Below the pieces are notes generated by a model that was not told the origin of the DNA, did no database searches, and worked only from the letters and a program-made list of their open reading frames with translations. The translations under genes were made by a program, and so were the position numbers. Source: Lophium mytilinum (Eukaryota > Ascomycota > Dothideomycetes > Mytilinidiales > Mytilinidiaceae). From it: DNA of 64,000 bases. Location of the stretch: NCBI GenBank assembly GCA_010093605.1, contig MU004192.1:1634584-1698583 (forward strand), written 5' to 3'. This document shows positions 5,066 through 61,525 of the stretch, one piece after another (positions within the stretch are counted from its first letter, which is position 1; each line of letters begins with the position of its first letter).

Positions 5066-5449
5066 TATTATAGTATAATAGTAAATTATAAGAGAAGATC
5101 TAATATTAGTATATATAGATAAAGTAGCTATAAGAAAGAGAGAAGGGCGCGGAGCGCTAGCTAAGAGGTAGGTAAGGCTAGCGCTAAGCCTAGTTATATA
5201 ATAGTAATTATATGCTAGAAAGTATATAATACTATTATATATATTAGAAATATAAGAGAAGACCTAATATTAGTATATATAGATAAAGTAGCTATAAAAG
5301 AGAGAAAAGGGCGCGGAGCGCCGGCCGAGAGATAGATAAGGCTAGCGCTAAGCCTAGTTATATAACGGTAATTATATACTAGAGGGCACATAATACTATT
5401 ATATATATTAGAAATATATTATAATAGAAGTTGCGTTATAGCTATAATA
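5066..5449 (-). repeat. 3' LTR of element A (enlarged)
   Basis: This LTR is 384 bp against 220 bp for its partner. The whole difference is an internal tandem duplication of 164 bp (5091-5254 and 5255-5418), each copy carrying the GC-rich GGGCGCGGAGCGC-like core. The outer ends match the partner LTR. Confidence 0.8.
5091..5418. repeat. Two tandem 164-bp units inside the 3' LTR of element A
   Basis: Both copies begin with AGAGAAGA followed by a CTAATATTAG-like run, and both contain the GC-rich core and the GGCTAGCGCTAAGCC dyad. The partner LTR has a single copy. Confidence 0.75.
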
Positions 5450-5464
5450 CTATCCCCCCTTTAA
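5450..5464 (-). other. Polypurine tract of element A
   Basis: On the minus strand this reads as an AAAGGGGGGATAG tract directly before the LTR. This is the expected plus-strand DNA primer position next to the 3' LTR and sets the orientation of the element. Confidence 0.65.
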
Positions 5465-13224: not shown

Positions 13225-13444
13225 TATTATAGTATAATAGTAGATTGTAAGAGAAGACCTAATATTAGTATATATAGATAAAGTAGCTATAAGAGAGAGA
13301 GAAGGGCGCGGAGCGCCGGCTAAAAGGTAGGCAAGGCTAGCGCTAAGCCTAGTTATATAATAGTAATTATATACTAGAGGGCATATAACGCTGTTATATA
13401 TATTAGAAATATATTATAATAGAAGTTACATTATAGCTATAATA
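13225..13444 (-). repeat. 5' LTR of element A
   Basis: This 220-bp LTR is homologous to the left LTR and holds a single copy of the unit duplicated there. It is followed immediately by the target duplication ATAGC (13445-13449). Confidence 0.8.
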
Positions 13445-13449
13445 ATAGC
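13445..13449. repeat. Target-site duplication, right copy
   Basis: ATAGC, identical to 5061-5065, on the other side of element A. Confidence 0.8.
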
Positions 13450-21750: not shown

Positions 21751-21933
21751 TATAAGAATTTAGAGAATAATAGATATTAATTCTATATAGAAATCTAGCT
21801 AGGCTATATATATATTAGAGAGGCCTATATAGGCCTTAATTATACTAGATTTATATAGAAAAGCGTTTCTATAGTAGATCTATATATTATATATATAATA
21901 TCTAAATATTAACTATATATTAAGAATTCTATA
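21751..21933. mobile_element. LTR copy, right end of the AT-rich island
   Basis: This is a 183-bp full-length match to 3616-3798, more heavily altered by transitions than the left copy. With the left copy it brackets the island as a direct repeat, as the LTRs of one element would, although no target duplication is visible on the outer flanks. Confidence 0.7.
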
Positions 21934-28739: not shown

Positions 28740-31700
28740 TCATCTTGTGCCTGCTGCAACTTTCGAGAATGTCATGTTATAGATCTCTTTTGTCAGTATC
28801 GAGCCCGATCCACTGCAATTTCCGCCTTCGTTTTCCAAGTATTCGGCCACTTCTACACGGCCCAATGCCGTCGCGATGTCCAGCGCTGTGCCAAGTCTAG
28901 AGCACACCAAATTGAGTTCCGCTCCGAGCGCAATTAGACACTTGACTGTGTCTAGCTTAGCGGAAGATACAGCCGCTACCAACGGTGTACCAAGTACGGT
29001 CCCAAGTCCGAAACATGATTTATTGATCGTCGCCCCAAGCTGATGGAGGACTTTGACCATCTTCGTATGGCCAAGAAAGGAAGCAACCCAGATCATTGGC
29101 GGGCCTGGGTCGTGATCATCCGGGTTCGCGGCGCGCGTGAGGATTGACTCGATGGTATCCTTGTGCTCATCTTGAACAATCCTGAGCAGTGCTCGGTATG
29201 ATATGAAAGAGGGACATCCGAGCTGCCCTTCCCTTTTAAGGAGAGAGCGGACTAGAGCATAATTCTTCCAATGAGCAGCTTGAGTGAACAGCGCCGATGC
29301 ATCGGCGCCGTCTAACTTGAGAGAAGGCCTCGCGTCTAGTAATATTCGAAAGCACTCGACTACGTCTGCGTTGAGCAAAGACGGGGGGGTGTGTACTATT
29401 CCGAGCATGATCACCTCATTGACGTTTGCTCCTTGCTTTAAGAGGGTTTCAAGTACCGAGAGATGTCCTTCGTGAAGGGCCCAGTCCATTGGTCGTCGTC
29501 CGGTGTCATCCTCGACATTCACTATTTCGGCGAGATCAAAGGAGTCAATAGGAAGCTGCACGCTTGACAAGGCTTCGTAAATGCCTCGAGATAGGAATGA
29601 AAGGTACTCATCCGAAAGACGAGCGCGGTTGTAGAGACGCGCGAGAAGCGTGAAATCCATACGCTCTGGATTCCTGAAGTCTAGCTTCTCTCCTAGAACG
29701 CTCTCCTCTAGATTCCATATTGAGAATATCTTCTTGGGCGGTAGCGCTTCGAAATCTCCATCTGTCAGGTAATAGTCTGGGGTCTGAAAAGAGTCGCTCG
29801 CAGCTAGAGAGGTTGTGGGAGAATGTTTTGGGTGGGTGTACCGATAATCTTTCAAGCTACCACCCCTAGATAGGAGCAAGTCATATATCGAACTGTGTTT
29901 TCGATGCCATGCCTCACTCAAAGGGGTAGATCTATAATAGTTAGGATAGAATTCCCGCGTTTCGATCTCGGATGAGGCATTCACCGACGCTCCTGAATCG
30001 AGTAAAATCCTGACTGCTTCTTCGTTTCCAGCCCAGACTGCCACGTGTAAAGGGGTATGGCGGTTATAATCCGACATATTCGCTCCTATGCCTGCATTGA
30101 GGAGCTTCGAAAGCATCTCATTCAGACCATAATAAGCAGCAAATTGTAATGGACCCATATTACCGATACGGCCAATGTTGAAAGCTTCCTCGGACTGCAC
30201 AAGGAGAAAGGCGGTTAATTTAGGCCCAAAAGCAACATTACGTATCTCCGCAGGTGTTTGCTGTACATCTTCTAAGCACAAACGAAGAAGAAGATCCCAG
30301 GGTTTTGCTTCTCCCGCTCGTTGTGTATGCATTATAGCATAAGTAGAGGCATAGCGTGCGAAGGGCTGTTCTGAAAGATATGACCACGCTCTTGCTCGAT
30401 ATACCACCGGGGCGCCTCCCGAAAATAATTGCCCACGGCGAATCTGAGTTGGAATCTGGTAGAAACTGGTTGATAGCAAGTACGTCAAGCATGTTGCGGC
30501 TATATCTGAGTGAGCTGCAGACGCTTCCTGGGGTTTTCCGTCGAAATAGGCTTGCGCGGTTTCATGTACAGGGCGAACGACTTGAGCTTCTCTGTCTAGC
30601 TGAATCAGACCCGCACAAGCAGAAATGACGTATTCGGGTTCATCCACGCGATCTTGCTGGATATCAGTATCTCCAGCAACAATGACCATTGCGTACTGGA
30701 AGTCCTTCAAGCTGAGCGGTTCGCGGGCAAAATAAACCCATTGCAAGGCGCGAAGAGCAAGCTCAACATCCTCTGGGTGTTGCGTCCGAATCCGTAGTAA
30801 GGCATCTCCGTAGGTCTGATCGAGGGTTTTCGGGAGCTCGGTGATAGCTTCGTTGACTGCCCATCTGCTCCGCTTAGCTTTGCGCTCCAACAAATCCATG
30901 TGCAGCCTTGCAAGCAAGAACCTAGTCTCTTGTGATCAGCACAATAGCACGGAAAAGAAGAACGAGAAAAGCTGAGTAACCCACATTCCCCCTGAGCTGT
31001 TTTTCAGCGTGTGTTTGATCTTTTGTTCCAGTGCGGCATCGGCTTGACAATGTTTCCCGAGGTACCGGTCACGCTTGATACGATCGGCCACATATTTGTC
31101 CACATCCTCTTCTCTAGCCCAAATCTCTAACCGAAGAGCATTCTCGATGCTTGATTCAATACTAGGAATGTCCCGAGAAGTAAGAAACAAATGCACGTTA
31201 GGAGGGAGTGCTTGCAATATCTCTAATAGATCATCTCTTGTAAGGTTTTCTTGGTCACACTCATCCAAAGCATCTAGTATGATATACGCTCTACGGAAAG
31301 AGCGTACCTGATCAGCTAGTAGTTTAGACAACTCCTTGATGCTAGCGGCTGTGTTCTGATAAGAATTCCGCCATAGATTTTCTACGGCTTTCCAAGCTTG
31401 GGGTTGTCCGCGAGCCGCAGATGTGTGCACCAACTGTTCGATGAGACTACCGAGGAGGTTTTGAAGTGTCTGAACTTTACGTTGTTTGTAATCGCAGTAA
31501 GCCCACGCAAGTCCAACAGAAGGAGCCTCGTCCGAGAGCATTTGGATGTGTTCGATGACGATGGATGCTAACACTGTTTTCCCCGATCCTGGGATTCCTG
31601 GACAAAATAGAACTCTCTTGGATCCGTTGAGCCAGGATTCGAATTTTGGACTTCGGAGGATCCATAGACCCGTCGCTTCTAGACGAGCATTCAAGGTGTC

Positions 31701-32410
31701 TTTCTGCTTGCTATAGAAATTAACAGGCGATAGCCACGCAGACAACTTCTCATTTTTTGCGTTCTGTTTTCGAGCTGTTGCCGATATATTAGCATAACTT
31801 TAATCATAATCTGCCGTAGAGCTTTCAGGGTAGAAAACCCGGCACAAGACAGTCTAATGGACTTCATACCCTCGGTTTGTGCACGAGCGCTCTCATTCCG
31901 CGATATTTGCTGTTCAAATGCATCCTGTATACCAGAAATACGAGCTACTATCAGTTGCGTATCGCCTTTGATTGCTTTTGATAACGCCACATGGTCGTTA
32001 TCGAGGGCGAGTGATAGTAAGGACTTTTGACGCTCGATCACGGCTATCAACTTCTCCACTTCGTGCTCCTTGAAGGGCCAGCTAAATGACTTTGTGAATT
32101 CTCTAAAGCCAGGCGAAGAGGACTTCTCAATCCCGATTTTTCGAACCGTCTCGTTGAGGGTTTGTCTCAAAAGAGCCAAAGGTCCTTCAGGATACGTAAG
32201 GCTACTGATTGTCTCGGTCCAGCCCCTCGTGCAAGCATCATCTGAGGTGTCCTGGAGAGTCTCTAGCACCCCGCGAAGCGAGCTGAGTTCGAGGATGAGC
32301 TTTCTGCGATCTTTTGTGGCCCCCGAAACGCCGCGAAGGTACTGCAGCGTTTTGGCCGACAGTTGCAGTATGGCGATGATACTAGCGGTCGCGCTCAGGG
32401 GGTCTGCCAT
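28740..32410 (-). CDS. STAND/NLR-like protein: fungal N-terminal helical domain, NACHT, ankyrin repeats
   Basis: Three exons read leftward: 32410-31870, 31774-30985 and 30921-28740, giving 1170 residues. The introns of 95 and 63 bp (donors GTATGA and GTGGGT) keep frame; the second joins GGM to FLLARLHMD, a conserved junction in the family. MADPLSATASIIAILQLSAK opens the helical N-terminal domain common in fungal STAND proteins. The NACHT NTPase follows with Walker A GIPGSGKT (~240-247), Walker B IILDALDECD (~345) and HLFLTSRD. A winged-helix-like linker (~450-560) leads to ankyrin repeats from ~700 (GPLQFAAYYG, TPLHVAVWAGNEE, RRPMDWALHEGH, TALDIATALGR). Members act as intracellular receptors, some in heterokaryon incompatibility or nonself recognition; the ligand here is unknown. 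It looks intact. The ATG at 32410 is the first in frame. Confidence 0.88.
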
Positions 32411-32529
32411 AGAATAATCGAATGTAATTGGAACACTGCAAAGGGGCACTCTGCATTTTCTTTAGTATATTAGAGCGGCATGAGAAAAATCGAGGAGGAG
32501 TCAGGCTAGATAAAGAGCTGCCATCACTG

Positions 32530-41224: not shown

Positions 41225-44200
41225 ATGGCCAATCGGCTGAGCTCTTTTGACGAGTCTCTTCGAAGTCCAGCGCCCGACGACAAAGACTTCCCGGAAATCC
41301 CAGAGGAGATTCATAGAAACCCCAAACCCGAGCTGCCTAATAGCAGAATCAAACGTAACCCGCGTCCGGCATCGAAAACGCCTAAACTTCGAGAACCAAG
41401 TTCTCTGTCGGCTCGCTACAGTGACCTTCGTCGTGATAGTCCTAGTGAACCAGCAGATGAGTCGTCGAGCCATTCAACACGAGGGCGCCTTGATCGAAAA
41501 CCAACGAACAAAATAGAGTCCGCTCCTCGTGCTGTGGATCTTAACGAATCGGCATTAAACCGGTACACCCCTGTAGATCCACACCAGCTGCGCGACTCTC
41601 CTCTGTTTCGACAACCAGATGGTCTCCCTTCCTTTGAACAATGGAAGAAGCCACGGCCCGCTAGGGACTGTGCATTATGTGGAGAACTTCATCTTACAGG
41701 GGATCTTCCGTCTCTTACGAACTGTAACCATCATCCAAAAGTGTGCAGAGATTGCTACTGTGTCTGGCTTGAGTCGGAATTGAATTCAAAAGGCTGGAGG
41801 CAAATCAAATGTCCAGAAGTAGGTTGCAAAGAGTTTCTGAATCACGCGGAGATGCAGCAATATGCCTCACCGGAAGTTTTTGCACGATTCGACGCTCTCT
41901 CTATCCTTGATTCTGTACAGGACAATCGTAACATCCGATGGTGTCGCAATCCTGATTGCAAATCGGGCCAAAAAATTGAACCAGACGCCTGTAGTCACCT
42001 GTCCCGGTGCATAGCCTGTGGCTTTGAATCCTACACCTTCCTTGGGGAAGGCCCACACGAAGGGGAAACTTCTAGAGAATTTGATCTCAGAACTAGGATA
42101 GAAAATGAAAAGTCCCAGACTGCATCTGAAGCGTCAGCATCAGCAATATCTCAAGGTGTGAAGAAATGCCCTGGGCAAAACTGTGGCTGGAATGTTGAAA
42201 AGCTTGAGGGCGACGATCACATGACTTGTAAGTCTAGCATGCCTCCCTGTGCCTAACCACAGTTTAAACAGAATGCTGACGAAGGACGGTATCTTCAAAT
42301 CTAGGCTCAAAGTGTAGACATGAATTTTGTTGGAACTGTCTAGCTGGCTATCAGGCCATCCGGAACAAAGGCAGCTCAGAGCATGCCACAAATTGCGCTC
42401 ACCATCCGAATCAACGGCATGCTATCGACGATGGCGCAGTCGCGAATAGGAAAGCTCCGGCAGAAGCTGAAGTTCAAGACACAGCTAATAAAGCATCGAC
42501 TAAGATACAACCCAGCACGCTAAAGGTGTGGAAGGAGACCCTAGGTAACCAACCCTCTGAATCACCGCAAAGGCGGAGCACTCGTAAGAAAGGCGGCTTC
42601 CCTTGTTTGCACTCTGGGTGTGGTAGGGCGTTTGACAGGCTCCGTGATCTTCAGTAAGTTTCTTTATCTTAGATTGCAAACTTCCCTACTAACAACTTAG
42701 ACGTCATACTAAGGTGCACTTCGACAAATCCGAGCGGCCGTACAAGTGTCCGTCCTGCTCCGAGGCCTTTATCTACCCTAGAGACCTCGAGCGTCACCAG
42801 CGCACCCATCGTACCCTGCCTGTCCCACAGCAGAAGATATACTGCCCCGTGAGGGGATGCTCAAACACCAAAGGATTTGGTCAGGAGGATGTCTTCACAC
42901 GACACATGCGCAATCAGCACCCCGACGCCGCTGTCGAGATCCAAGCAGAGAAACGTGCGGAAAATCATCATTTGGAAGCAATTTCGACGGATTTGTGGGT
43001 TTACGATCGTGATTTAGAGGACGATGATTCAGTCTTGTCTGACCGTGGAAGTCAAGGTTCCGCCGTGTCTGCAGTGTCATCCGCTACTTCCTTCGGTATC
43101 CACCTCCCGGCACTTACTGACCAGTTTGTAAGCGTGGTCCTGAAAGACGCCGGTATGAAGTCACTACTTTTCAGCGGGTTTGATGCGATGAGTAGAGACC
43201 GATTCGAGCGGAATACACGCCGTCTATTAAGGCGTTATGCTCTCAATCTTATCAAATCAGCGTCCAACGAAATCCAGATTCGAGCTGCGAAGTACATCAG
43301 AAATCAGAGTCGTCTGATAGCTAATCGCATTCTATACAACATCACACCCTTAGAGCATGCGAGTTCTAGCACGATGGATGAGCTTGTGAAAACACAAACG
43401 GCACTGCCTACGTTGACCGGTGTTCAGAAATCAGAGCGCTTCCTCGAGCAAGAAGTGCCAACGGAGGAAATGGAAGATCCAAGCCAGCCATCCAAGGAGC
43501 AGGTCCCGGACGGGCACTGGTCTGATTCCGATAACTCTGATGATGACGCCCATTCATCATCACAAGAGACTATTGACATTCAACCTCTCCTACCGTTCTT
43601 GATATACAGCGACCAGTTTGAAATGTTGAGGGAAGAACTGATGAACTTTGTCATTCCGACGCAGCTAGCAAACCATAAGTTGATGGATTGGAGCTTCCCA
43701 GCGCCTCAAAGCGCGATAGAGGTGAGACCAATCGTCCCCCTCTACCGAAGTTACTCGATATCCCATTCGATCCTAACATCATGATAGTGCACTCACTGTA
43801 TGCAGCAAGAACAGCGATGCCGTGGTTTTCCCACGGAAGGAGTAGTGTACGAAACGCTAAAGGCTGCAAAAGCCTTCCTCAGCTCATGTCCACTGCAAAA
43901 TCATCTCCATTATCATTGCCTAGCCCTGATAAGTCAGTGTAAGTTCATTCGGATCTCTTTCCTCGACTTATTGGAGTTCGGAGTTGATAGAGCATAGGTC
44001 GTCGATCTCCGCTTCCAAGTGACATTAGCGAAAGTCTGATCGCCGATATCCTAGCAGTGTGTAGCTGTAGCAACCGGACCGACGTCAAACCGGATCTCAT
44101 TTTTCAGATACTGAAAGGCGTGGAGCAAGGCGTGGAAAATGAGTCCACCAGAATACTACAAGAGCGCTACCAGCATCCTGAGTCCGCAAGCCAGACAAAG

Positions 44201-45580
44201 GCTGCGACAAACTCACAAACTAGTGCCCACTTGGAAAGACTACTTGAGCTGCAACAGGAAATTCAAAACTTGGTTCAACAGCCTATAGCAATGGATACAG
44301 GGGCGCCCTTGGTCACTAATATCCTTGAGGCCTACCACGAAAGCGAACTTTTCAGCCACACATCAATTAGTCCATCATCTAAGGGACTTTCCATTGATGC
44401 GACACCCTCACGATGCAAACCACAACAGGCTTTCGGAGCGCCGACGGGCTACTGGCAAATGATCGCGAAAGGCTGGAGTAAGATAAGAAGGCCGCGAGTG
44501 CCTTCAGGGATGAAGAGAATCGAGTGGACCTGTGTAAGTCAAGCCAAAAAAAAAGCGCAAAGGCTTTGGAAGCTTACAGTGCCAGGACTGCGGCCATGAG
44601 CTTTACGGTGACTTTAACGACTCGGATCCAAACGCGCTCAAGAGCTTGGAAGCTGCTCTGCAGAACTGTGACCCCGAATCGCAAAGCAACACGTCTCTAA
44701 ATTCCGACTCTGGCAGCCTAGCTAGCACATCAAGTAATCCAACAACGTCGACAAACGCTGCAAGCGGTGGAGTTTCAAATAGCCATGTTCCTACAAACCA
44801 ACCATCGACTTCCCAAGTACAGAAACCCGGGGAATCGCTGGCGGAAGAAGCCCAAGCTGCCTTGCCGAGATATCTTGCAATCTGCGTCAACACTGGAGGC
44901 ATTTACGTGACTCTGTCTGAGATTTCTGTACCAAGAAACACTTCCGATGCCGCTCTATTTGATATGATCAAAATATCATACCAGAAGCTCCGTGGGTTCC
45001 GCATCCGCTTTGCGTTTCTCTTGAGACCTATAGGCGTGGAATTCGTTTATGTAAGATGCCCTCAGAAAACGAAGCTACTCAACATAATCCGTCTACGTGG
45101 GTTGCTGACCACTGATAATAGTTCACCCTCTGGAACCTTCGCAAAGGCTACGTCTCCATCTGTGACCGACCTCGATGCGTCCCACCGGAGAGCCTCTCCG
45201 ACTACGAGTTCCTCCCGCGTCCGATCGTCCCGCTCCCCCCAATGCCATCTGAAGTCTTCATCCACTACCTTCAACATGGCGATGGGGACCTCAATCCGGT
45301 TCGCAGTATCTGGGCACCTCGTCTCCCGAAGCGGCTGCACAGCCCGATCGTCAACGCTGACATGCCAAGTTACGGATGGGGAATTCACATTGTTGAAGGG
45401 ACGAACCGGGTGCTTGTCTTTTGGATCTTCATGTTCACAATCTTCGCTAGTATCCTAACGACTGTACTCTGGTCTTCGTTCAAGCACGATGTTCAGGGCG
45501 GGTCGGGTCTTGGGTCGTTGATCGTGGCGCTGCCGTCCGTCGTATTGATGGCGTGGCTGTTCAGACTTGGTGCAACATAG
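41225..45580 (+). CDS. RBR (RING-IBR-RING) ubiquitin-ligase-like protein fused to C2H2 zinc fingers and a membrane tail
   Basis: Seven exons: 41225-42227, 42305-42653, 42701-43721, 43788-43938, 43998-44533, 44586-45050 and 45122-45580, total 1327 residues. All six introns (47-77 bp) have GT donors and AG acceptors and keep frame. Order: disordered N-terminus; RING1 (CALCGE, ~148, ending CPEVGC); IBR (WCRNPDC, ~238; CIACGFES); RING2 (CPGQNCGW, ~314; HMTCSKCRHEFCWNC). After a linker come C2H2 fingers (CLHSGCGRAFDRLRDLQRH, ~434; CPSCSEAFIYPRDLERH; CPVRGC...FTRHMRNQH), a Cys-rich middle, WTCDCGHELYGDF, and the C-terminal module with YGWGIHIVEGTNR and two membrane helices, as in large fungal C2H2 proteins. 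Exon 2 alone carries both the RING2 end and the first finger's start. RBR ligases move ubiquitin through a RING2 Cys; here that position is Asp330 (EGDDHMTC), so activity is doubtful. Confidence 0.85.
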
Positions 45581-46746
45581 TCGCGTAGAATCGGGGAAGC
45601 CTTCCCTACCCGCTCTAGGCATTAAATACGCTGAAACACCTCCGATAGCGCCCAGACGGTGGGCGCGGATGTAGTAGCGGCCACATCAGACACATCACGT
45701 GTGAAATTCCGAACCATGATTTGAAGCACTCCCGACACTATTCCCCGCATGGATACATCCCTCTAGGTCTGCCTTTGAGATCGGTTCCTAAGCCATTGAA
45801 TGACATGACGCCCAATGGAGTCGCGACCGGCCAAGCACACGTGACGGCTGGATCATGCTGATCGAACCATCTTAGACTAACCTTTCAAGGTTTTTTTGTG
45901 ACACTCATCATTTTTCCAACTCCATCAACAAGAAGACCGCATTTCGACAACCATCGTCCCCAACCCGTTCAGAGCCATGCGGCATCGGCCATCTAAGCCT
46001 TGTCAACGTACATTCGACCTATGGAGGCTACCCTATTCCTAGCGAAGACGAAGCCTTGTTGTGCCTCGTGGAGGCTGCCACCCCGCTAAAAATAAGTCGT
46101 CTCAAAGCATCTGCGTGCATTTCAGCGTGTTCTACCAGGCTAGCGCCAGCAACTTCATTCGCTGGCTACCCGCCCCCTCGCCGTCCCGACATCTCAGCTG
46201 CGGCCCGTTCCTCTACGCTTTTGGGTTTAGGGGATCGCTTACTCCGCCAAGGGGTGCTCAAGCATCATTCTTCAGCGTATCATGTCTTCGCTAGCAACTT
46301 CATTTGTGGGCCGCCCGACTGTGCCACCCCAGCCTTCCCGAAGTCTCAGCTCCAGGCCACGGCCCGCGCGGATTCGCTTTTGAGTTTATCGAGGAGATCG
46401 ACTAGCGTGCCGAGGGGGGCTACGCAGTTGACCAAAAGGACGCGGTACAGCCTCTCATCACGCCCGGCAGTTTAGCGCTACGCTGAGTTGATACTAGTCT
46501 ACTTCTTTTCTGGTGAAATAGTCAGCCGGCTTGAAGATTGATTGGCTTGTGGGTCGCTGTTCCTCTAAAGGCGTCCGGTGTTGCTGCCTTTTACGGTAAG
46601 TCTGTTGCTTGATTGCAGAGGGTGACCACCAGACAGGAAGAGAGGCTGAAACTTTGCGTGCAGTACAGATAAGGCAGCCTCGTCCCCTTCAACTGTAGCT
46701 TCTCGACTTCTCCCGGCACTCTTCCTTTAATCAAACTTTCGTCAAT
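45581..46746. other. Intergenic, about 1.2 kb, with a tandem duplication
   Basis: Holds the 3' flank of the fusion gene, CACGTG boxes (45696-45701 and near 45837), the duplicated segment 46100-46421, and the promoter of the membrane protein gene. A plus frame of 139 codons (46056-46475) follows the duplication and is probably not a gene. Confidence 0.4.
46100..46421 (+). repeat. Two diverged tandem copies, about 160-170 bp each
   Basis: Copy 1 (46100-46255) and copy 2 (46256-46421) share in order: CAAAGCATC/CAAGCATC, TTCAGCGT, CTAGC...CAACTTCATT, TCCCGA..TCTCAGCT, GCTTTTG.GTTTA and a G-rich end. Copies differ by many substitutions and small indels, so the duplication is old. Function unknown. 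Confidence 0.6.
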
Positions 46747-48399
46747 ATGACGTACATTGACCTAGGTAGTCGTGTCTCAACACCCTCGACAGAAAACTTA
46801 AGAGACCCATTGTCATCCTCCCTGCTACCAGACAGCGATAGCAAGCTTCCGCAATTCGACATTGCACTGGGCACGCGACGACTCTGCTTTATCGGGCTCG
46901 CTTTCTCATATCTCCTCTCGCTAGGTCTCATCATCGGCGGCTCATGGCTGCTTGGAACAAAAGGAGGCGAAAGTGACGACCCAATATGGATCACTATTGA
47001 TGCGTTAAACTCTAGTGCCGTCATCGAGACTCTCACGCTCATCTTCAATGCCTCCGTGACAGTAATCACAGAGTGCCTGGGATACATCCACGCCACGTCA
47101 CTTCGGTGGGCTTTATACCACGAGGGCCGCCTCCACCACAATTCCAACATTCGCCTGCTCACCAGTTCCCGGAACTCAACTCCCAACGCGTGGTACATGA
47201 ACGCGGTCTGGGCTATCCTACTAGTGATGGCTCAGAGCTGCGCCTCGCAAGTGCTTGTGAGAATCAGTGTCAGTGCCAGTGACTACGCTCTCTTCGGCGC
47301 TCTCGTCGGCGGCATTGTCGACGGCATGAACGGCGTCAACGACCTCGCCATGCTCCTCCTCGGTTTATGCCTCTTCCTCCTCTGCCTCCTCTCAACATGG
47401 TCTCTCCACCCCACACACCGCGCTCAAATCATATCCTGGAGCCCTGATCCACTCAACAACGCCCTCGCCCTCCACCACGCCACTCCCAACACCCTCGCAA
47501 CCCCCGACCTCCCTTCCAGCCTTCCCAAGCGCCGCCAGCTCTCTTCCAGCTCCACCAGCGGCAGCATCACCGCTACTGTCGTATACCTTTGGTCAGTCGC
47601 GATCGCGTGCACCGTCGGCGCCATAGCTTGGTACACGTACATCAAGCGCTACCCCGAGTCCAACAGGACAGACAATGGCGTAACGAGCATCTTGCTGATC
47701 CCAGATTATTTCGATTCCAGCTCCGGTACCTTGGCGGCCGTGAACATATTCTTCCTCGCCGGCATGCAGGTTTTGTATGCGCTCGCGCTGCACTCAACCG
47801 AGCAGCTCGTTAACTTCTCGCGCGACGAGGCGGCATGGCGGCGTGCCGCCTCCACAAAGGGTGCCGTTGTCGGCGGTGGGTCGCTGTTTAAGGTCTTCAC
47901 ATCTTGGGAGGCGCTGCTACTGCTAGCGATGAAGCCGCTGAGTCATTGGATATTCGGATTAACCATCTCGACTTTTGGGGAGTACGGAGTGGAATTCTCG
48001 GTGTATGCTTTTCTGGGGCTCACGGCGATGGCAATTGTGTTGGCGATGTTTGGAACATTCCTGGCGTACAGGAGGCCGAAAGGGCCACAGCCGGCGCTTT
48101 ATGGGCACTTGAGGGGATTGAGGCAGCTAGTAGACGAGTGGGGGAAAGGAGCGGGTGGAAGGATTTATTGGGGTGATAAGGGGGAGATTGAGGGGCAGGG
48201 TGGGATGAGGTTGGCGGGCACGTCGCCATCCCCCGGGGGTGTGATGCCAATTAGCTTTGCTGGGAGGGAGTATCGGGGGTTGGTGCCGGATATAGAGCTA
48301 CGAGAACGGCGGGGGTGGTCTTTACCGCGGAGTTTTACAAGGATATTCAGAAGGGGGATGTCTGAGAAGGAGAAGGGTGAGCAAGAGGGGTTAGCGTGA
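46747..48399 (+). CDS. Multi-pass membrane protein, uncharacterised fungal family
   Basis: One exon, 550 residues, ATG at 46747. After a polar N-terminus there are about seven to nine hydrophobic spans, among them LCFIGLAFSYLLSLGLIIGG (~47), WAILLVMAQSCASQVLV (~157), LAMLLLGLCLFLLCLLS (~207), VVYLWSVAIACTVGAIAW (~288), VNIFFLAGMQVLYALAL (~340) and YAFLGLTAMAIVLAMFG (~430). The C-terminal cytoplasmic-looking part has a conserved-looking QPALYGHLRGLRQLVDEWG and YWGDKG stretch, then a basic tail. I recall this layout from uncharacterised membrane proteins of Pezizomycotina, but no function is known to me. It has no enzymatic motif. It is convergent with the first F-box/ankyrin gene. Confidence 0.8.
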   Translation: MTYIDLGSRVSTPSTENLRDPLSSSLLPDSDSKLPQFDIALGTRRLCFIGLAFSYLLSLGLIIGGSWLLGTKGGESDDPIWITIDALNSSAVIETLTLIFNASVTVITECLGYIHATSLRWALYHEGRLHHNSNIRLLTSSRNSTPNAWYMNAVWAILLVMAQSCASQVLVRISVSASDYALFGALVGGIVDGMNGVNDLAMLLLGLCLFLLCLLSTWSLHPTHRAQIISWSPDPLNNALALHHATPNTLATPDLPSSLPKRRQLSSSSTSGSITATVVYLWSVAIACTVGAIAWYTYIKRYPESNRTDNGVTSILLIPDYFDSSSGTLAAVNIFFLAGMQVLYALALHSTEQLVNFSRDEAAWRRAASTKGAVVGGGSLFKVFTSWEALLLLAMKPLSHWIFGLTISTFGEYGVEFSVYAFLGLTAMAIVLAMFGTFLAYRRPKGPQPALYGHLRGLRQLVDEWGKGAGGRIYWGDKGEIEGQGGMRLAGTSPSPGGVMPISFAGREYRGLVPDIELRERRGWSLPRSFTRIFRRGMSEKEKGEQEGLA

Positions 48400-48728: not shown

Positions 48729-50569
48729 TCAAAGCTCCTTCCAACCTTCGCCTTCCCGCCACTTCTTCCACTGCTCCGCCTTCCACGACGACTGACATTC
48801 CCGCACATACTTCCTGCGCACATTCCACTTCAGCCCATCCTGACCTGGGGTGTACAGCGTGATCTCGTCCCGATACATATCCCAAAACTCGGAGAACTGC
48901 TCGGTGATTGCATCATCTTTCCGCGAGGACGACTCCAGAGCGAACTTAACATCAAGAAACAATTTGACAGTTTGTGACCGAATGTGCGACTGGAGCCCGG
49001 AAAACGGGCAGGGCACTTCGCGGGGGAACTTCTTCAAAACGTGTTCGGAACGAGCTTGGTCATACACGACCTGAGCGGGGATCAGGTCCAATCTGTTGAG
49101 CTTGAGTGCGTGGTGAAGCCAGAAGTGTAGTCGACGGTAGGTATCCTGGTAGCCCCACCCACTCGGCTTTCCGTAAGCGAGGAAATTGCCGATGCCGAAA
49201 TTCGTCTTCTCAAGGAAACACTCGAGCGGAGTATTTCCAGATATATCTCGCGCTGTGGGATCAGCCCCCGCCTCCATCAACAGTGCCGGGTATGGTATAA
49301 TGCCGTAAGCGCGCTTCCAGGAGTCCTTTGCTTCCATGACAATGTGGAGCGCCGTTTTCCCTTTGCGGTTTAGGACGTTCAGGTCCTCGCAGAGAGATAG
49401 CAGAAGTGCGAAACCGTTCGGACTCATCAGGCTGAAGTTTTTTGCGGGATGGGCGACAACCTTATGGATCGGATAGTCTTTTTCCACATACGGGATGTTG
49501 GGGTTGGCGCCGTGCTGTAGGAGTATTTCTGCAATCATTCGTCGGTCGACTATATGGCCTTGGCCCAGAGCTTCAAGGGTGCGGTTGAGTGGACTGATGG
49601 AATCGCCTGCTTGTCCGTCGTTCGGATCCATCCCTGCCTCGAGTAATGTCTTGACCATAGGGAGGTGGAAGTTGTCCACTGCGTGGCACAGAATGTTCCC
49701 GGCGTCGGAAGCCCAGCTGAGATCCACCCCATTGTTGATCAGGACCGTGAGTAGCCTTGGCGATTGCGCTCTGAACACATGTGGGACCGGGGAAGCCAGA
49801 ACGGCTTGTGTTGAAGTATCGTATGGCCACCGTATGTTGGAATTTGACAGGTGCATAGGATTCGCTCCTAACTCGAGCAGCAACTCGAGCTTTCAGCCAT
49901 TAGTCTATCCTTTGAAGTCAGCGCAGCAGTTGAGAGACTCACAGTTTCGATCTCCCGGCTTCCCACTTCGTAACAGTTATCCCATATGCGATCACGATCA
50001 GGACACGCCCCAAAACCCCAAACTTTGTCATCGGTTTCGCCTTGTATGCCGAAATAGCCCAACCAATACTGAAGCAAGTCTGTCACCTGACTACTCAGAA
50101 TGTTGCGGTCTTTCGCTAGCCGCTGTGCGTGTTGCAATAGTGAGAGAAGGGTATCAGTGTAATAGTCTGAATCGGAGGAGTCTGCAGATTCCATGATTTC
50201 GATGAGCCATGGAATGGCTTGCCAGTATCCATTCTCCGACTTGCCGCTGGCATTGTGATCTAGCAGGTACTGGGTAAGGCGTCGATTTTGCTGACGCATT
50301 GCCCATATCATAGCCGGAAATGGTTCACAATCGCAGGCATCCGGCCAAGTCTCCCTGCTAGCGACAAAGACTGTTGGAAATCGATGACGAACCCACCTGT
50401 TGCCGCTGCGTTCGCAGTCGGTCCTGTCCCGAACAGCGCGTTTATGCAACTCCGGCTGCAGGAACACATGGATTTCGGAGTGAGTTCGAATGAGGTTGTT
50501 GAGATCGGAGTCCAGGAGCAATTTCGAGATCTCCAATAGGATCTCGTTTGGGATTGTATGCAGCGCCAT
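48729..50569 (-). CDS. F-box/ankyrin repeat protein, paralogue 1
   Basis: Two exons, 50569-49943 and 49889-48729, separated by a 53-bp intron (GTGAGT donor, GACTAATGG branch region), encode 595 residues. The N-terminus MALHTIPNEILLEISKLLLD with FLQPELHKRAV is F-box-like. The ankyrin part starts right after the intron (LLLELGANPM) and continues with HGANPNIPYVEKDYPIHKVV, GKTALHIVMEAKDSW and AGADPTARDISGNTPLECFL. The C-terminus is Trp-rich (SSWKAEQWKKWREGEGW). F-box proteins recruit substrates to SCF ubiquitin ligases through Skp1; ankyrins would bind the substrate. It shares start, intron position and tail with the genes at 51603-53337 and 59739-61525. It appears intact. Confidence 0.85.
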
Positions 50570-51602
50570 CGCTGAGAATACGCTTACCCGATGAATTCGG
50601 TTGTGGTGATAGGGAACGAGAGGAAATTCAGTGGTTAATTACCTTTAGTTTCAAACTGTTGAGTGAGCCTCTATCAGCCTCTGCCGAGAGCGACAGTGAG
50701 GTAGCACTTGAACTCTAGTGAGTCGTGGGCGAGATGAAGTGAAGAGTGAGGTCTTGTTGATGTTGATGAACAGCCCGCTGACTCATCCAAACTAGTCTAT
50801 ATTAGGCTAGCTCCTGTGCACGTGCCTCGTCATTCCAGACCTCATTGACAGACCACAAGTCTAGGCACACTGGTACCCCACTGCTTGGGGTACCCCCACC
50901 GGGTTTCTAAGACTTAAGGGCAATATCAGGTTTCAGGCAGTGCGAATTAGACTACCTCTTACCTAATTACCTGTTCAGCAACCAGGCTCCTCCTAACAGT
51001 GATGTTGAGCGGGCAAGTTGGAGCCGAGCTGTGATGAGCCCATGCGCCCAGACTTCTGGCCCAGGACCGTAGTAGTTGAAGAAGTCTATTTGAAATATTA
51101 AATCCCGCGCATGTGCAACACTAAGGAGTGAAGTACTAAGAGAAACCTTGAAGCAAACTAGTTATAGAGATAACCTTTGTGGTCTTTCTAGTCATAGAGT
51201 TCGATAAACTAGTAGATTGATAGGTGACACTTTTAGGGTACGTATTCTCAGTGGAGCTTGAAAGAACTTGTTGCCGTTTGTGAGTGCTTATTACACAAAA
51301 AGCCTCAGGACCTTGTTGAATGCAGGCCATGGCGTGTGTTGCTAGGTAGAACGCGAAACTATGTACATTGAGAGCCCCTGTTGGCTACTAGCATTGATTG
51401 CTGCAGGTAATTGTCATAATCCAACAGACTTTAGGTATCTCTGTAATCTTTCAATTCTGCTCTATAGCATTTCGATAAAGCTTGGGTAATCCTGAGTCTA
51501 TGTAAACCCAGCTTGCACATTGGATGGAGGAACCCTAGCTTCTCTATCCGCAGATGGCCCTGCAGCCCTGGGGTGTTAATATCCGGGCCACTCCTCTTTC
51601 AG
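50570..51602. other. Intergenic, about 1 kb
   Basis: Upstream of paralogue 1 and downstream of paralogue 2, both minus. It contains the hairpin at 50872-50894. No other feature recognised. Confidence 0.4.
50872..50894. repeat. Perfect 9-bp hairpin
   Basis: GGTACCCCA, a 5-nt loop (CTGCT), then TGGGGTACC. It lies about 300 bp upstream of the paralogue 1 start. A chance perfect 9-bp stem is possible. Confidence 0.4.
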
Positions 51603-53337
51603 CTACTCCTGCCCATCCCGCCACACCTGCCACTCCCGAGCCGTCCAGGCTGGCCAGTCCGCCCACGCCCTCTCCCAGTTTTCCTGATCAAGCCGTGAAA
51701 TTGTATCCAACTCCTCATACTCCGGCGGAGTCAAAATATCGTGTTTATGCTTTTCCCAGAAAGCGCGGAACTTCAACCCCATCGGTCCTCCCTTCCATGG
51801 AAATGACTCAAAAGCGTACATAACGTCAAGGAAGGCCTTCACTGTCGACGAATCGACGTGCTCCCGTTGATGGGCATCCGGGGGCCAGACCGTTTCTTCA
51901 ATATGCTTTCCCAGGACGTGCTCCGCATATGTTTGCTCGTATACGATCCGAGCGGGCAATAGATCCAGTCGATTGAGTTTGAGTGCGTAGTTGGTCATAA
52001 AATGAAGGCGCTCGTAGACGTGAGGCATAGAGCCCGTACAGCTGCCGACGCCGAAGGTGGATGTTCCAAGAGCGCACTGGAAGGGAGTGCGTCCAGACGA
52101 GTCGGGCAAGTCCAGGTTCGCCCCCGCGTCCATCAAGATCTTCGCGCACCACAGCGAGTTGTCTTCGCAAAAGGCGTTCTTTCCGTGTTGCCCCATGACA
52201 ATATGCAGTGCGGTCTCGCCTTTGCCGTTCTGTACGTTGACGTTGCTGCAACGGCTTACGAGAAGCTGGAAGTATTCCTTGTTCATTGGCAGATAGGTTT
52301 CGTCGATTTCGGTAACCGCTACATGGATTGGGTACTCCTTGCCGTGAAGCGGTGTATCGGGATTGGCGCCATATTGAAGAAGCAGCTCTACGAGCTTGGC
52401 TTGCGCCCTCTCTTCCTCATACTCGTCGCTTATCCCATGAATACTAGTGAATGCCTCGTAAAGCGGGGGGAACATCTCTACCTGTCCGCTATCGTTGGGA
52501 TCCATACCAGCTTTCAGCAGCGCCTCAACCACGGGAAAGGGAAGCCTTCCGACAGCATACTGGAGGACGTTCTCAGTCCCTGAAGAAGACCATTTCAGAT
52601 TTGCCCCGTATCTGATGAATAATGCAAGAATTTCGGGCGAAGAGACCCGGAAAAGGTTAGGTATTTTAGGAAATGACTCGAACACGATTGAATGAAAAAC
52701 TATATCATATGACAGTGCCATGGGATCTGCCCCCAATTGAAGTAGCATTTCGACCTGTAACCTATCAGCAATCGTCTTTTGGAGATCTTGAAGCTACTCG
52801 GTGACATACCATCTCAATATAGCTCTGCTCAACCGTCCCTTGGGTACAGAATTTTTCCTCCCTTGTCAGTCGCAAATGCTCACCCATGAGATGATTCAGA
52901 GAATTTGTCAGGAGTGTTGTGAGCTGACCACCAAGGACTTTACTGTTCTTCCCCGACTGGTGTACATGTTCCAAGAGAATGAGAATACTGCCAAGGTAGT
53001 GATGGGGATAAACCCCGACCGTTTCGATGACGGGCCAATATCCATCTACCGTCATCCCATCAAGATTGTGGCGTAATAGGTATTGCAATAGATGACCGTT
53101 TTGGTGTCTCAATGCCCAGTGCATCGAGGAGTCTTGGCAGCCATCAGCATATGCTCCGTTGTAGTGACCAGAGTCTAGACTGATTAGGGACCGGTCCTTC
53201 ACCGCGCGCTGGTGCAGCTCAGGGTGTAGGAAATCGTAAATGTTCCGATGCGCTTGGGCAAGGTTGTTGAGGTCGGAATCCTTGAGCCACTTGAAAACCT
53301 CCAAGAGGATCTCATTGGGAACCGTGTGGAGCGCCAT
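51603..53337 (-). CDS. F-box/ankyrin repeat protein, paralogue 2
   Basis: Two exons, 53337-52810 and 52754-51603, with a 55-bp intron (GTATGT donor, GCTGATAGG branch region, CAG acceptor), encode 559 residues. The start MALHTVPNEILLEVFKWLKD is F-box-like, and the exon-2 start VEMLLQLGADPM matches the other two paralogues at the same intron position. Ankyrin repeats include LFIRYGANLKW, EALLKAGMDPNDSG, LLLQYGANPDTPLHGKEYPI, GKTALHIVMGQ and DAGANLDLPDSSGRTPFQCA. The Trp-rich tail reads WADWPAWTAREWQVWRD. The first exon is shorter than in the others. Likely an SCF substrate adaptor, by domain only; the target is unknown. It appears intact and lies head-to-tail with paralogue 1, about 1 kb away. 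Confidence 0.85.
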
Positions 53338-54370
53338 TCTCGTGGTGGGGCGGTGAGGTGTTGAGGACGGAGCAATTTATGAAGGTTTGGTGCTTAAGCT
53401 TTCTCTTTGGCGAGAGGTAGGCCGGCCCTGGCCATAGACGCTGGTGAATGGGATGCGAGTGTGGAGAGCCGCCTCCTCCTCTCTAGCACCTTCAACCTCG
53501 TAGCCCTCCTCACGCGTTATGCCAGCTTGTCCATCCTGTATCCTGGATAGCTTCCTTCTTCGGAACACTTGTAGCTCCTTTTCCTTTCGTAAATCGACAG
53601 CGTCATGCTTTCATTCAAGTAATTCCCCTAGGCCTGACTTCTTATTGACGCACGAGGTAGGCTTGGCTTGCAATTACCATCGTGCGTGCACCCGTGTCGC
53701 CATCCCCACTCTGGGCCTTAAGAAACGGAGAAGCAAGAACAATGATGCGTGGACCGTCTGGTGTTTTATGGGAGGAGTGTGATGGTTCAAGTAAGCAAGT
53801 TCGGGAAGAGTGGATCCAGGTGGGATACAAGAAATGGACCCCTTGCAAGCCCTAGCCGCGGCGGTGCAGGGGGTGGGGGTGAGACGCACGATGGGTGACA
53901 TCTGACGTGTGTCGATCAGGAAATCCCTGCTGGGTTTGAGGAGATGATCTTCGGAGGAGTTGGGAAGGTGTTTGCAATTTATGAGGGGGTTTGAAGCAGT
54001 CACGTGGCCGATTAAGTTGATCAATGGGAGGGAAGGTAAAATGTGAACAAGAAGAAAGTATATTGGATATCATGTCAAGATCGCTGACCGCCAGACTAAA
54101 AAAAAGCACATGGTCTCGTAAATGCCAACACACATCCTGCACGCCGCCCTATTCCACACAGGCTGTTAAGAAGCCACGAAAACACCCAAACTCCTCCCTA
54201 TTTCGCACAGGTGGAAATCCAACTCAAGCACCCAGACTCCTCCCTATTTTGCATAGGTGGGGAACTCACTCCAGTACCCAGACGCCTCGTGAATGCGCTG
54301 CAATAACGCTAAGCTCAGTAATATCGGCAACATAGAAAAACAGCAGCAATGGCCAACTCCTTCATCCGCT
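53338..54370. other. Intergenic, about 1 kb
   Basis: Upstream of paralogue 2 and downstream of the DUF7703-like gene. Holds the minisatellite at 54142-54292. Short frames on both strands have no support. Confidence 0.4.
54142..54292 (+). repeat. Minisatellite, unit about 46 bp, about three copies
   Basis: ACCCARACTCCTCCCTATTT followed by GCAYAGGTGG recurs (54184-54229 and 54230-54275), with a degenerate copy before (GCCCTATTCCACACAGG) and a partial one after (ACCCAGACGCCTC). It lies just past the 3' end of the DUF7703-like gene. Confidence 0.6.
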
Positions 54371-55491
54371 TTATGCCTTCTTCTCCTCATCTTCGTGCTT
54401 GTCTTGAGTGACCGATATGCGCGTCGTCTGCAGGATCGCATCTTTCCCATACGGCGCGAGCTTCAGGCTTTCCGCGCCCGACGAACTCCGGCGCACGCTG
54501 GGCGGGGCCACGATATTGATCTCGCTTGTGTTGGAGTAGGTGTTGAGGCGCACATCATGGCGCGGGGTCGATCTCCACCGGCTCTCCCCCTCCTTCTTGC
54601 TGGCGCCATGATCGGGAAGCGAGTGCGAGCCGTACGTGTTGTTTCCGCGGACCGACTGCACGAGGCGGTTGAGGATGGAGAATTCGACGCGCAGCTTGAC
54701 GCCGTACACGCAAGGCTTGAACGCGGACTGGACATAGAAAAAGTGCGAGTAGGAGAGGCCGAGGAGGGCGATGTCGAGGCACACGACGAGCAAGTTCGTG
54801 AGGATGAGGTGCTGCATGACGGTGCGTACCATTTTGTCGGTCTGGCCGAGGGTTGCGCGGTTCTCCAGCACCCGCCGCGTTTCAATGATGTATAATACGG
54901 AGATGATGGTTTCCTGCACGAAGAAGACGGTGACTTGGACCTTATCCCAGACTTTGTTCGCGGCGAGGAGTTTGGCGTCGCCGGAGCCTTGCGAGGCGAT
55001 GCCGAGACCCATTGTGGGCAGGGCGATGCAGGTGGCGGTGAAGCAAATCATATAGAGGACGTAGCGGTGGATGTTGGGGTTGGCGATGACCAGGTGGAGT
55101 CGCGAGTAGAGCACGACGGACTGCGGAATCACCATCATGAACCAGCTGATGTAGATCAGGGTCAGGCCGGCGTAGGGGTTTGTGACTTGGTCGAAGTCTA
55201 CGAGGACCTGATGAATGGTGAGCTCGGCGCATTTCAATGTGCGTGTAGGCGTCGAGTGTTGTCCCAATGCGCCGGGAAATTGAAGAAATTGGGAATTACC
55301 ATGAACAGCGGCTGCGTCATGACGCCCCATGAGGCCACACAACACGCCCAGAAATAGAGACCCTTCTTGCGCAGAAAGGCAAACCATAGCCGTATGTTCA
55401 GCTCGACGCACAGGTACCAGGCCACGCCCATGAAGGCGGCCATGGTCATGGCGGTAGGCAGGTCAGCCTTGAGATCTTCGGCAACGCCCAT
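54371..55491 (-). CDS. Fungal integral membrane protein, DUF7703-like
   Basis: Two exons, 55491-55300 and 55207-54371, encode 342 residues. The 92-bp intron (GTAATT donor, CAG acceptor, phase 0) joins WGVMTQPLFM to VLVDFDQVTNPYAG. The start MGVAEDLKADLPTAMTMAAF, then VELNIRLWFAFLRKKGLYFW and SWFMMVIPQSVVLYSRLHLV, resemble the DUF7703 family. About seven membrane spans are visible (e.g. YVLYMICFTATCIALPTMGL, VTVFFVQETIISVLYIIE, HLILTNLLVVCLDIALLGL), followed by a Ser-rich cytosolic tail. The role of the family is unknown; the layout is receptor-like but I would not claim that. The ATG at 55491 was chosen because it opens the conserved N-terminus; longer upstream frames are low-complexity. Confidence 0.78.
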
Positions 55492-57927: not shown

Positions 57928-59738
57928 ATTGCTTGACGCAGGGTAATGCTTCTTCGTGCGTCTCGGTGTATGACGGTACGCTTTCGATGGGACGGGAGTC
58001 CCGTACCGCAATCCATGAGCAGGGCACTATGCTACGTGTCTAGTGGTGTTGCTGACTCCTTATTCTCTTTAATTGAAGCGATGATAGCATCAGATGACGA
58101 ACCGGTCGCTATCCTATCTGCATTGAATGGCGATCATCACCTGCATTAGACCGCGATCACTATTGCATTCAACAATCTCAGAAGCATGGCGGAAAAGTAA
58201 CTTTCGACTGTAAATACTCCGACAATTCAAACTCCTGGCATTGGCTATATGCCTACCGATCACGACCTCATCTCCAAGTTGCTCTCCGAATCGCTCATTA
58301 TCTCATGTATCACTGGCCATCACTCAATCTGCTACTCCCCGAAGTCTATATTTCCTTTCTCCGCCGCTGTGCCGTGCAACCCACTCCTTTTCCATAATCC
58401 CCAAAGCTTCTCAAGACGTGGGCCTCGGGTGGCCTCGCGGAAGATCCACTCAACAGAAGGTCCTAAACGTGATAACAGCTAACAGTATGATACGGCATTG
58501 CTTCTATATGAACGCGATGTCCATAACTCGTAAGTCGGTCACATGATCCGCCACGTGTGCCAACGGGCAAACCAAACACCTTTTCCGTAACCTCATCCCA
58601 ACCACTACTGAATTTTCTCATCTTCTATCACTCACCCCAAACTCACAACTACTGCACTACCTCTCTGCTTTTTCATAATCAAGTCCTCCCGCACCTTCCC
58701 ATCCCCAGTCCTCTTCGTCGCCTTCGCCGCCCTCGCCGCCACCGGACCCAACTGCTCCCCTCCCTGCTCATGAATCTCACAAAGATCCCTCTTTCCCCTC
58801 GGTTTCCCCCTCGTACCAAAGTTGCCGCCAACATGAGCAAAACGCCTGCGGTAGTGACTCTTCAGCGCCACGGGCTGCTCGTCATCAATCGAAGACTCAA
58901 TATTATTGCTTTGCTCCTGCCCCAGTGAAGCATTGTAGCGTTGATTTCGCGATTTTTGGCCGTGGGGTCGATGGAAGCGAGAATGGCAATTTGGGTCTTT
59001 GGGTCTTGTATCAGCTCATTCCTTGGAACTAATGAGTAGTCGTTGCGAGGATGCGGTTGCTTGCTATCTCGCTAACGTATGCGGGATGGTTTGTGCATAG
59101 ATGGTGTGACCTCGTAGTGGGAACCTTGGTGAGTTTGGCAAACGAGATGACAAGCGTTGTTAGATTTGTGGCGTATTTAAGATTTAGGGTTCGGATCTAT
59201 CTCTTGATGTTGTATCCTGCGGTGATAGACTGGACTTCACTACGTCACAGGTACTCTCTTCAAAAGCCTTCGGGCATATATACTAATCCCGCCGATACTA
59301 AGGAAATGAAGAAGGGAGGGAGAGATTCAGAGGAAGTCAAGACTCCGAGGACCACTCGTTGCACATGGGTACGGTAGGGATCGTCGAGGCCCGCCCTCAT
59401 CGCCGTGGCAATCCAAGTTGGTAAGAAAAAAGAAGACCGACTCATAAGCCAGAGCAGCCTCCCCTGATCCCTCGGAATGGGAAGCCGGTGTTCTCAAGGC
59501 AACACGTGTGCAGGGCCATATGAGTGAATGTTGTGTGTTGTCAAGAGGCCGTCAACACTCGAATCTAGAACCGTCGACATCCCTTGCCAGGCTTGAGCCG
59601 CTTGCCACGGACGTCGCGTATAAAAACGTCCTCGAACCCAGGACCGACCTCCAGGAAACTTGTCCTCAAATCAGTATTTTCACCATCGCCACCACCACCA
59701 ATACCTCCGCAAATCACATTCCCCTCGATACTCTACCA
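57928..59738. other. Intergenic, about 1.8 kb
   Basis: Downstream of the cupin gene and upstream of F-box paralogue 3. Overlapping frames on both strands around 58560-58930 and a plus frame at 59051-59377 lack ATG-supported starts or known motifs. CACGTG boxes occur near 58553 and 59502. No RNA gene recognised. Confidence 0.4.
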
Positions 59739-61525
59739 ATGGCGCTTCACACTATTCCAAACGAGCTTCTTCTAGAGTTCTCACGATGGCTTTCGGATCA
59801 ACAGCTCAAGAACCTAGTTCAAACCCACCCGAATATACACATCTTTCTACAACCCGAATTGCACAAGCGTGCTATACGAGATCGGTGCCAATGTGACCAC
59901 GATTCCGCAGACTACCGAGGGGCATACGATCTAACCTGCGAGTATGAGCCGCCGTATGCACACACGTTCAAGCCAGCCCTGCATTGGGCAATAGCATGGG
60001 AGCGGCGTCGGCTTGTGGAGTATTTGGTCCGTCACAAGGTCGGTTGCAGAGTGGACGACGGACACTGGCCAGCCCTGGACTGCCTAATCGACTCGATTGA
60101 ACATCCAGCTTGCATGTCCGAAAACTACCCCACTGAGATTGTCATCTCGGTCTTGCAACACGCACAGCGGTTAGGCAAGAACAGGAATATTTCGAAGAGC
60201 CAATTCACACGCTTGCTGGAAGACTGGTTGTGCCGCCACTGCCTATACCCACATTTTATAGGTTATTCCAGTTACATTCCGAAGCTTGAAGTCAAAGTTG
60301 TACGTCATTCTGAAGCTTGGCAAGGCATCGAACTATGATCGCTAATGTTCTGTAGGTGAAAATGTTGTTCCAGCTCGGAGTCCACCCGATGGATCCATCA
60401 AACTCAGGCGCGCATATGCCGTTCGCACCCCGGGTATCCACTACGTCTCCCATCCCTCACATGTTCAGAGTCCAGAACCCACGGCTTCTGAGAATATTCA
60501 TCAAGCATGGCGCGGATCTCAACTGGACCACGCCAGAAGGCGAAAACATTCTACACTTTGCCGTGAAAATGATGGACCACGCCATGGTCAAGGCTCTTCT
60601 AGAGATGGGTATGGATGCAGATGTAGGAGGAAATAACAACCTTTTCAACCCACTGCATCGAGCGATCACAGGCGAGGACCACGACAACTCTATTGAGAAA
60701 CGGCGAATGATTGTGGAGCTGCTACTTGAGCACGGTGCCAACCCAAACATACCTTCACCGAGTAAGGAATTTGCGCTCCACAAGATTCTAGCGAAATTCT
60801 ACGGCGATAGCTACAAGGGGCTGAACCGGGATCATTTCGACGTCCTCGTGGCCCGATGCCAGCACATCAACGCACGCGACACCCAAGGAAAGACGGCGCT
60901 CCACATACTTATGGAGCAACGGAAGCGCGTGCGAAACAATGGAAGCTGTCTCTGGTATGCAAAGATACTCATTGAAGCCGGAGCAGATCCGTCATTGGTA
61001 GACAGCACCGGGTACCCTCCATTTCACTCTGGTATTCGGAAGTCCAAGTTCGGCATCGGCAACTTCACCATTACCCCTGAATGGAGAGACCTTTGGTGGA
61101 CCCCAAACGACATCTATCAGCGACTACATCTTGCCACCTACTATGCGTTAAAGCAGGGTAGGGTGGACTGGATCCCAGCGCGCGTGGTGTACCAGCAGGC
61201 ATACTCCGAGCATGTTTTGAAAAAGTGTCCGGCCGCTTACGCTTGGCCCGCCTTACCGCATATTCGAGCAGAGACTGTTCAGATCTTTCTTGATGTGATG
61301 CACGCCTTGGGGTCCTTTCCTTGGAGAGGAGGGCCTGCGGGTGTGATGTTCCGCGCTTTCTGGGAGAAGCACCGAGAAGAAATCACTGCTCCTCTACCCC
61401 AATCCTATCAAGGCAATTACAACTATCGCGATTGGAAGGAGACGTGGGCTCATTGGCCAGCTTGGAACGTGGAGGAATGGGCAAAGTGGCGAGAGGATCA
61501 GGAGTGGATGCGTAACGATAGATAG
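59739..61525 (+). CDS. F-box/ankyrin repeat protein, paralogue 3
   Basis: Two exons, 59739-60299 and 60356-61525, with a 56-bp intron (GTACGT donor, GCTAATG branch, TAG acceptor), encode 576 residues. MALHTIPNELLLEFSRWLSD with FLQPELHKRAIRDR is the F-box-like start shared with the two minus-strand paralogues. Exon 2 opens VKMLFQLGVHPM, again at the same place. Ankyrins include IFIKHGADLNW, EMGMDADVGGNN, LLLEHGANPNIPSPSKEFAL, GKTALHILMEQ and EAGADPSLVDSTGYPPF; the tail is WAHWPAWNVEEWAKWREDQ. The frame is open upstream of 59739, but only the MALHT start is shared by the family. Likely SCF adaptor by domain; target unknown. It is inverted relative to the other two and about 6 kb away. Confidence 0.85.

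Follow-up and report, generated by a model that had tools for sequence, protein, structure and literature searches.

Gene structure and genomic surroundings

The window, by which we mean the whole 64,000-nucleotide stretch of DNA that was analysed, contains at 41225-45580 on the forward strand a gene whose seven exons are joined across six introns into one frame of 1327 codons plus a stop in the spliced translation. The initial annotation had described seven exons in a single frame, and all of its named boundaries, together with the length of 1327 residues, match this translation. The parts of the gene are as follows.

Exon 1, 41225..42227, + strand: N-terminal region without a domain match, RING1 (C149-C201), IBR (C240-S283) and RING2 as far as HMT (its first half)
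Codon 330, 42212..42214, + strand: GAC, an Asp where RBR ligases have their catalytic cysteine
Intron 1, 42228..42304, + strand: GTAAGT..CTAG, within RING2
Exon 2, 42305..42653, + strand: RING2 (second half), a linker containing the basic stretch RRSTRKK (residue 424), and finger 1 (first half), with no Met in frame
Intron 2, 42654..42700, + strand: GTAAGT..TTAG, within finger 1; if retained, stop after 451 residues
Exon 3, 42701..43721, + strand: end of finger 1, finger 2 (C467-H487), finger 3 (C499-H524), charged middle, helical-looking by eye
Intron 3, 43722..43787, + strand: GTGAGA..ATAG
Exon 4, 43788..43938, + strand: CTHC (residue 792) at its start
Intron 4, 43939..43997, + strand: GTAAGT..ATAG
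Exon 5, 43998..44533, + strand: middle region, last residues WTC
Intron 5, 44534..44585, + strand: GTAAGT..CCAG, within WTCDCG
Exon 6, 44586..45050, + strand: DCG completing WTCDCG, a low-complexity stretch and a region predicted as strand-strand-helix-strand-strand (pLDDT 63.8, weak)
Intron 6, 45051..45121, + strand: GTAAGA..ATAG
Exon 7, 45122..45580, + strand: last part of the tail with two stretches that look membrane-like (about 1272-1290 and 1304-1322), and the stop

All six introns are bounded by GT..AG and measure 47-77 nt, with GTAAGT as the donor in four of them and GTGAGA and GTAAGA in the others. A branch-like motif (C/T)T(A/G)A(C/T) is present in five of the six, and no motif of this pattern was found in intron 5. 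When introns 1 to 6 are retained singly, the first stop comes after 343, 451, 811, 860, 1041 and 1310 residues, respectively.

The window has ten N bases (4024-4033), which are distant from the gene and lie inside an 18-kb AT-rich island (3598-21931) flanked by 199-nt direct repeats of 93% identity (3598-3796 and 21733-21931). Between 3800 and 21700 the GC content is 0.264, TpA/ApT is 1.78 and (CA+TG)/(AC+GT) is 0.13, dinucleotide values that are the signature of repeat-induced mutation. Adjacent NPHP3_N/NACHT and ankyrin frames occupy several reading frames at 28740-32461 (-) and resemble fungal NLR-type genes; the frame 31691-32461 lay outside the Pfam scan. Short introns, the AT-rich island and this NACHT-ankyrin gene point to a filamentous ascomycete as the probable host. 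Just downstream of the gene, a 566-codon frame (46699-48399, +) has many hydrophobic stretches by eye and gave no Pfam match at E <= 0.01. Three similar-looking genes follow at 48729-50638 (-), 51603-53376 (-) and 59448-61525 (+), and their common MALHT(I/V)PNE start suggests, by eye, a small local gene family; in the part of 48729-50638 that was scanned, Pfam identified ankyrin. The frame at 54371-55462 (-) matches Pfam DUF7703 (1.1e-28).

A single gene across the RBR and finger parts

It had been argued in the initial annotation that the RBR and finger halves could not easily be separate genes, and that exon 2 carries the second half of RING2 together with the first half of a finger. Both half-domains do lie on 42305-42653: it takes the splice of exons 1 and 2 to complete RING2 (HMT followed by C) and that of exons 2 and 3 to complete finger 1. 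Before residue 560 the only Met residues are 1, 210, 333 and 520, with none in frame between 333 and 520, so a separate finger gene would be without an in-frame start before the third finger. That an RBR gene was joined in error to a neighbouring C2H2-tail gene is thus very improbable: although retention of intron 2 would give an RBR-only product ending at residue 451, this explanation has to contend with the two half-domains of exon 2, the absence of an in-frame Met from 333 to 520, and the GTAAGT donors of both introns flanking that exon. No second copy of the RBR or of the tail was found within the window at E <= 0.01.

The openness of the reading frame was compared with 20000 first-order Markov simulations preserving the gene's base order. 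A frame of the length of exon 2 (115 codons) was open by chance in 0.7% of them, and a linker of 50 codons in 12%. Openness therefore supports a single gene without deciding the matter, and it is the two half-domains of exon 2 that carry the argument. Codon scores were best in the coding frame for six of seven segments, the linker included, with small margins in the front part; a reverse frame scored slightly above the coding frame in the finger segment. By its sequence, then, 41225-45580 appears to be a single gene of unusual architecture. As the seam of the fusion falls within exon 2 rather than at an intron, whole-exon shuffling would not be the simplest origin.

The RBR module and its zinc ligands

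The RING1-IBR-RING2 order proposed for the front part is supported. Pfam detected IBR (1.3e-11) and IBR_1 (3e-07) in the whole protein, and IBR at 6.6e-14 when the RBR part was searched alone. No Pfam RING model matched RING1 over its cut-off (lowest E 0.067), and RING1 was assigned by its C3HC4 spacing and by alignment to solved RBRs. With residues 1-430 as the query, these were ARIH1 (2e-09, from residue 164), HOIL-1 (3.9e-08) and CUL9 (5.7e-08), the last two from residue 145, and the alignments span all or most of RING1. NCBIfam gave no match to the RBR piece at E <= 1, and a single-sequence structure model of the exon 1 fragment 41645-42226 was uninformative (pLDDT 34).

The RBR signature is C3HC4-C6HC-C3HC4, as described in an excerpt of PMC2904391. 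RING1 has all eight ligands of its C3HC4 (C149, C152, C167, H169, C174, C177, C196 and C201). The C6HC of the IBR is incomplete, with five of eight retained (C240, C245, C262, C265 and H278) and Cys positions replaced, in comparison with ARIH1, by Y270, L273 and S283. C256 and H258, which lie inside the IBR, might substitute for the lost ligands. With the IBR damaged, the module may fold badly. RING2 departs from the signature at one position of eight, keeping C315, C320, H332, C335, C338, C343 and C346 but with Asp330 where the catalytic Cys would stand.

Asp330 in place of the catalytic cysteine

The RING2 core of the window protein reads KCPGQNCGWNVEKLEGDDHMTCSKCRHEFCWNC. The solved RBRs matched also include Parkin, HOIP and more; in the alignments compared here, those to four of the solved proteins, Asp330 faces the Cys of three (ARIH1, ARIH2 and CUL9), and in the fourth, HOIL-1 chain 8eaz, it faces an Ala that is taken to be the engineered C460A. 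Close by, His332 and Glu341 are both retained, and we take them to be at the positions of the catalytic His and Glu of Parkin (placed by hand, Parkin numbering). The passages available from PMC9834252 describe a Cys-His-Glu triad in Parkin and state that RBR ligases carry ubiquitin on a RING2 cysteine that is essential, C460A being inactive; an excerpt of PMC3305615 describes this catalytic Cys as highly conserved among RBRs.

A change from TGC or TGT to GAC involves at least two bases, so one miscalled base does not explain Asp330. Repeat-induced mutation consists of C-to-T changes on either strand and makes no T-to-G change; it was rejected as the origin of Asp330 because the change to GAC requires T-to-G.

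The module is, most likely, not a normal RBR ligase but a pseudoligase carried on a membrane-anchored C2H2 protein, in which thioester transfer of ubiquitin by the RBR module is predicted to be absent. The front part had initially been called an RBR ligase module, a name that does not fit a protein with Asp330 instead of the catalytic Cys and with three IBR zinc ligands missing, and the proposal of a ubiquitin-linked regulator would hold in a non-catalytic sense and not for a ligase. A working RBR ligase using another residue as nucleophile would be compatible with the triad His and Glu that are present, but position 330 has no Cys and the catalytic Cys is described as essential in RBRs (excerpt of PMC9834252), which makes this alternative very improbable.

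Fingers, middle region and tail

Pfam zf-C2H2 matched the whole protein at 1.5e-05 and the finger part alone at 5.8e-13, over the cut-off and in three stretches. Together with the cysteine/histidine pattern, this confirms the three C2H2 fingers reported earlier: C435-H457, C467-H487 and C499-H524, the third with a C-to-H spacing of 14 residues. The pattern C-x2-4-C-x12-H-x3-5-H has a single match when all six frames of the window are read without splicing, namely finger 2 of this gene. A looser pattern applied to the spliced protein returned the three fingers and C343-H367, which is the end of RING2 and was not counted as a finger.

The Cys-rich middle and the WTCDCG block were recovered as well, the former as the CTHC stretch. 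Hydropathy above 1.6 in 19-residue windows was reached only by windows starting at 1269-1277 and 1301-1309, two C-terminal hydrophobic segments that agree, by hydropathy, with the two-helix tail described initially and that may insert in a membrane. The Pfam search returned the IBR and zf-C2H2 parts of the proposed architecture, and not RING1, the middle or the tail. Searches of the middle and tail pieces gave no match over the cut-off; Zwint came closest (E 0.0084, with 16.1 bits where 29 are required), and Xpo1 (0.078) and ATP-synt_I (1.7) also fell below it. The tail piece had no NCBIfam match, and the last 745 residues no PDB match, at E <= 1. A structure model of the exon 6 fragment 44808-45050 (pLDDT 63.8, pTM 0.45) gave a strand-strand-helix-strand-strand arrangement; a ubiquitin-like fold was considered for it and found unsupported, with a best PDB match of E 0.22 and none at E <= 0.001.

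Possible role of the protein

We propose that the locus holds an intact gene, probably fungal, for a protein with a membrane-held C-terminal hairpin, three C2H2 fingers and, in front, an RBR pseudoligase acting as a non-catalytic docking unit, a reading to which we give about an even chance. RING1, with its zinc ligands intact, could still dock E2~ubiquitin, and RING2 has kept its scaffold and the triad His and Glu but, with Asp330 for Cys, would form no ubiquitin thioester. From a complete RING1 and a RING2 without its nucleophile, one would expect E2~Ub to be docked and not discharged. The module would then serve as a non-catalytic docking unit for E2~Ub or ubiquitin that regulates the zinc-finger and membrane parts or is regulated by them. 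Joined to the basic stretch RRSTRKK at residue 424, to the fingers, which may bind DNA or protein, and to the predicted membrane hairpin, it would be the part that docks or senses within a tethered regulator. Since the catalytic cysteine is absent, a docking or sensing protein seems more likely than a working ligase.

Excerpts of PMC5758712 report that in four RBRs the RING1 fragment by itself binds UbcH7, and that RBR RING1 domains keep E2~Ub in an open state while suppressing transfer to lysine. The second of these reports bears on the idea that RING1 is here an ordinary RING ligase activating the E2 directly, so that the protein would be a membrane-bound ligase despite Asp330. The C3HC4 of RING1 is complete, as this idea would have it, but the suppression of transfer to lysine, along with HHARI RING1-IBR, for which the available part of PMC3305615 describes no enhancement, makes it decidedly unlikely.

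The strongest rival is decay, in which the RBR part is a functionless remnant of a fusion, degenerating on a working C2H2-tail protein; it is strongest because the IBR is damaged and a single sequence is at hand, from which selection for Asp330 and decay are indistinguishable. Losses have occurred at two places, the catalytic Cys and the three IBR ligands, and third-position GC is 0.42 in the front 435 codons compared with 0.53 behind (p = 4e-4). However, this step is poor evidence for decay because three of eight other long frames of the window also have their best GC3 split at p < 5e-4. As a mark of fusion the step was likewise weak after controls, the gene's strongest splits being near codon 1150 and near 400. 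Long decay, moreover, would hardly spare all eight RING1 ligands, seven of eight in RING2 and Glu341 in an open frame. We regard decay as possible but somewhat doubtful, and continue to favor the docking unit. A more specific form of it, in which a conserved fungal family of membrane-tethered C2H2 regulators is under the control of an RBR pseudoligase with Asp330 fixed, which captures E2~ubiquitin, does not accept the ubiquitin, and by its occupancy sets finger activity or membrane release, is put forward tentatively and seems rather unlikely.

Recognition of an RBR protein as a ligase relies on its cysteine-histidine pattern, and genes such as this one risk a wrong ligase annotation; here the earlier ligase interpretation is replaced by that of a likely pseudoligase. 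If the proposal is true, fungi reuse the RBR module as a docking or sensing part, with RING2 well kept and only the triad nucleophile replaced. The module offers a clean test, namely E2~Ub binding without discharge.

Relatives and comparison with known systems

In the titles and abstract starts of the literature matches listed, neither a fungal RBR-C2H2-membrane protein nor a precedent for inactive RBRs or ARI14 was found. Arabidopsis ARI14 is a putative inactive RBR. In an excerpt of a 2010 plant RBR study, fungi are named as one of the groups yet to be analysed (PMC2904391). Viral contigs scanned twice with pieces of the protein gave one pattern-matching stretch each time, and a scan of them with a two-row alignment gave 34 stretches, in all cases with no relative; plasmids gave no match. 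One scan of prokaryote genome contigs returned 22 stretches with a single relative among them, a 760-residue protein of a Dependentiae bacterium MAG (L001, 7209-9491), in which an IBR-RING2 unit is surrounded by ankyrin-like repeats by eye. An IBR family search was positive for its genome and for none of 14 control genomes, and its fragment had no match in phages. It could be a eukaryotic-type protein of a bacterium, or it could come from contamination.

The 16-residue RING2 core of the Dependentiae protein differs from that of the window protein at two positions (GDDHMTCSKCRHEFCW in the window, GCDHMTCTKCRHEFCW in L001), one of them the nucleophile, as L001 reads GCDHMTC and the window GDDHMTC. 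Both proteins have a hydrophobic C-terminus by eye in the bacterial case, but the Dependentiae protein has the catalytic Cys, and ankyrin-like repeats by eye instead of fingers; inspection revealed no RING1 in it.

ARIH1, ARIH2 and CUL9, RBR ligases of the Ariadne/CUL9 kind, are among the best solved-structure matches, and share the RING1-IBR-RING2 order and a RING2 core with HMxC and FCW.C. They differ in that Asp here replaces the catalytic Cys and three IBR ligands are gone; they also have other parts where C2H2 fingers and a hydrophobic tail follow the RBR here. The fingers, middle, WTCDCG block and hairpin tail we take to be as in large fungal C2H2 proteins, a putative kinship; no Pfam or NCBIfam model was over the cut-off on the tail. 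Compared with those C2H2-WTCDCG-hairpin proteins, the window protein has an RBR module in front.
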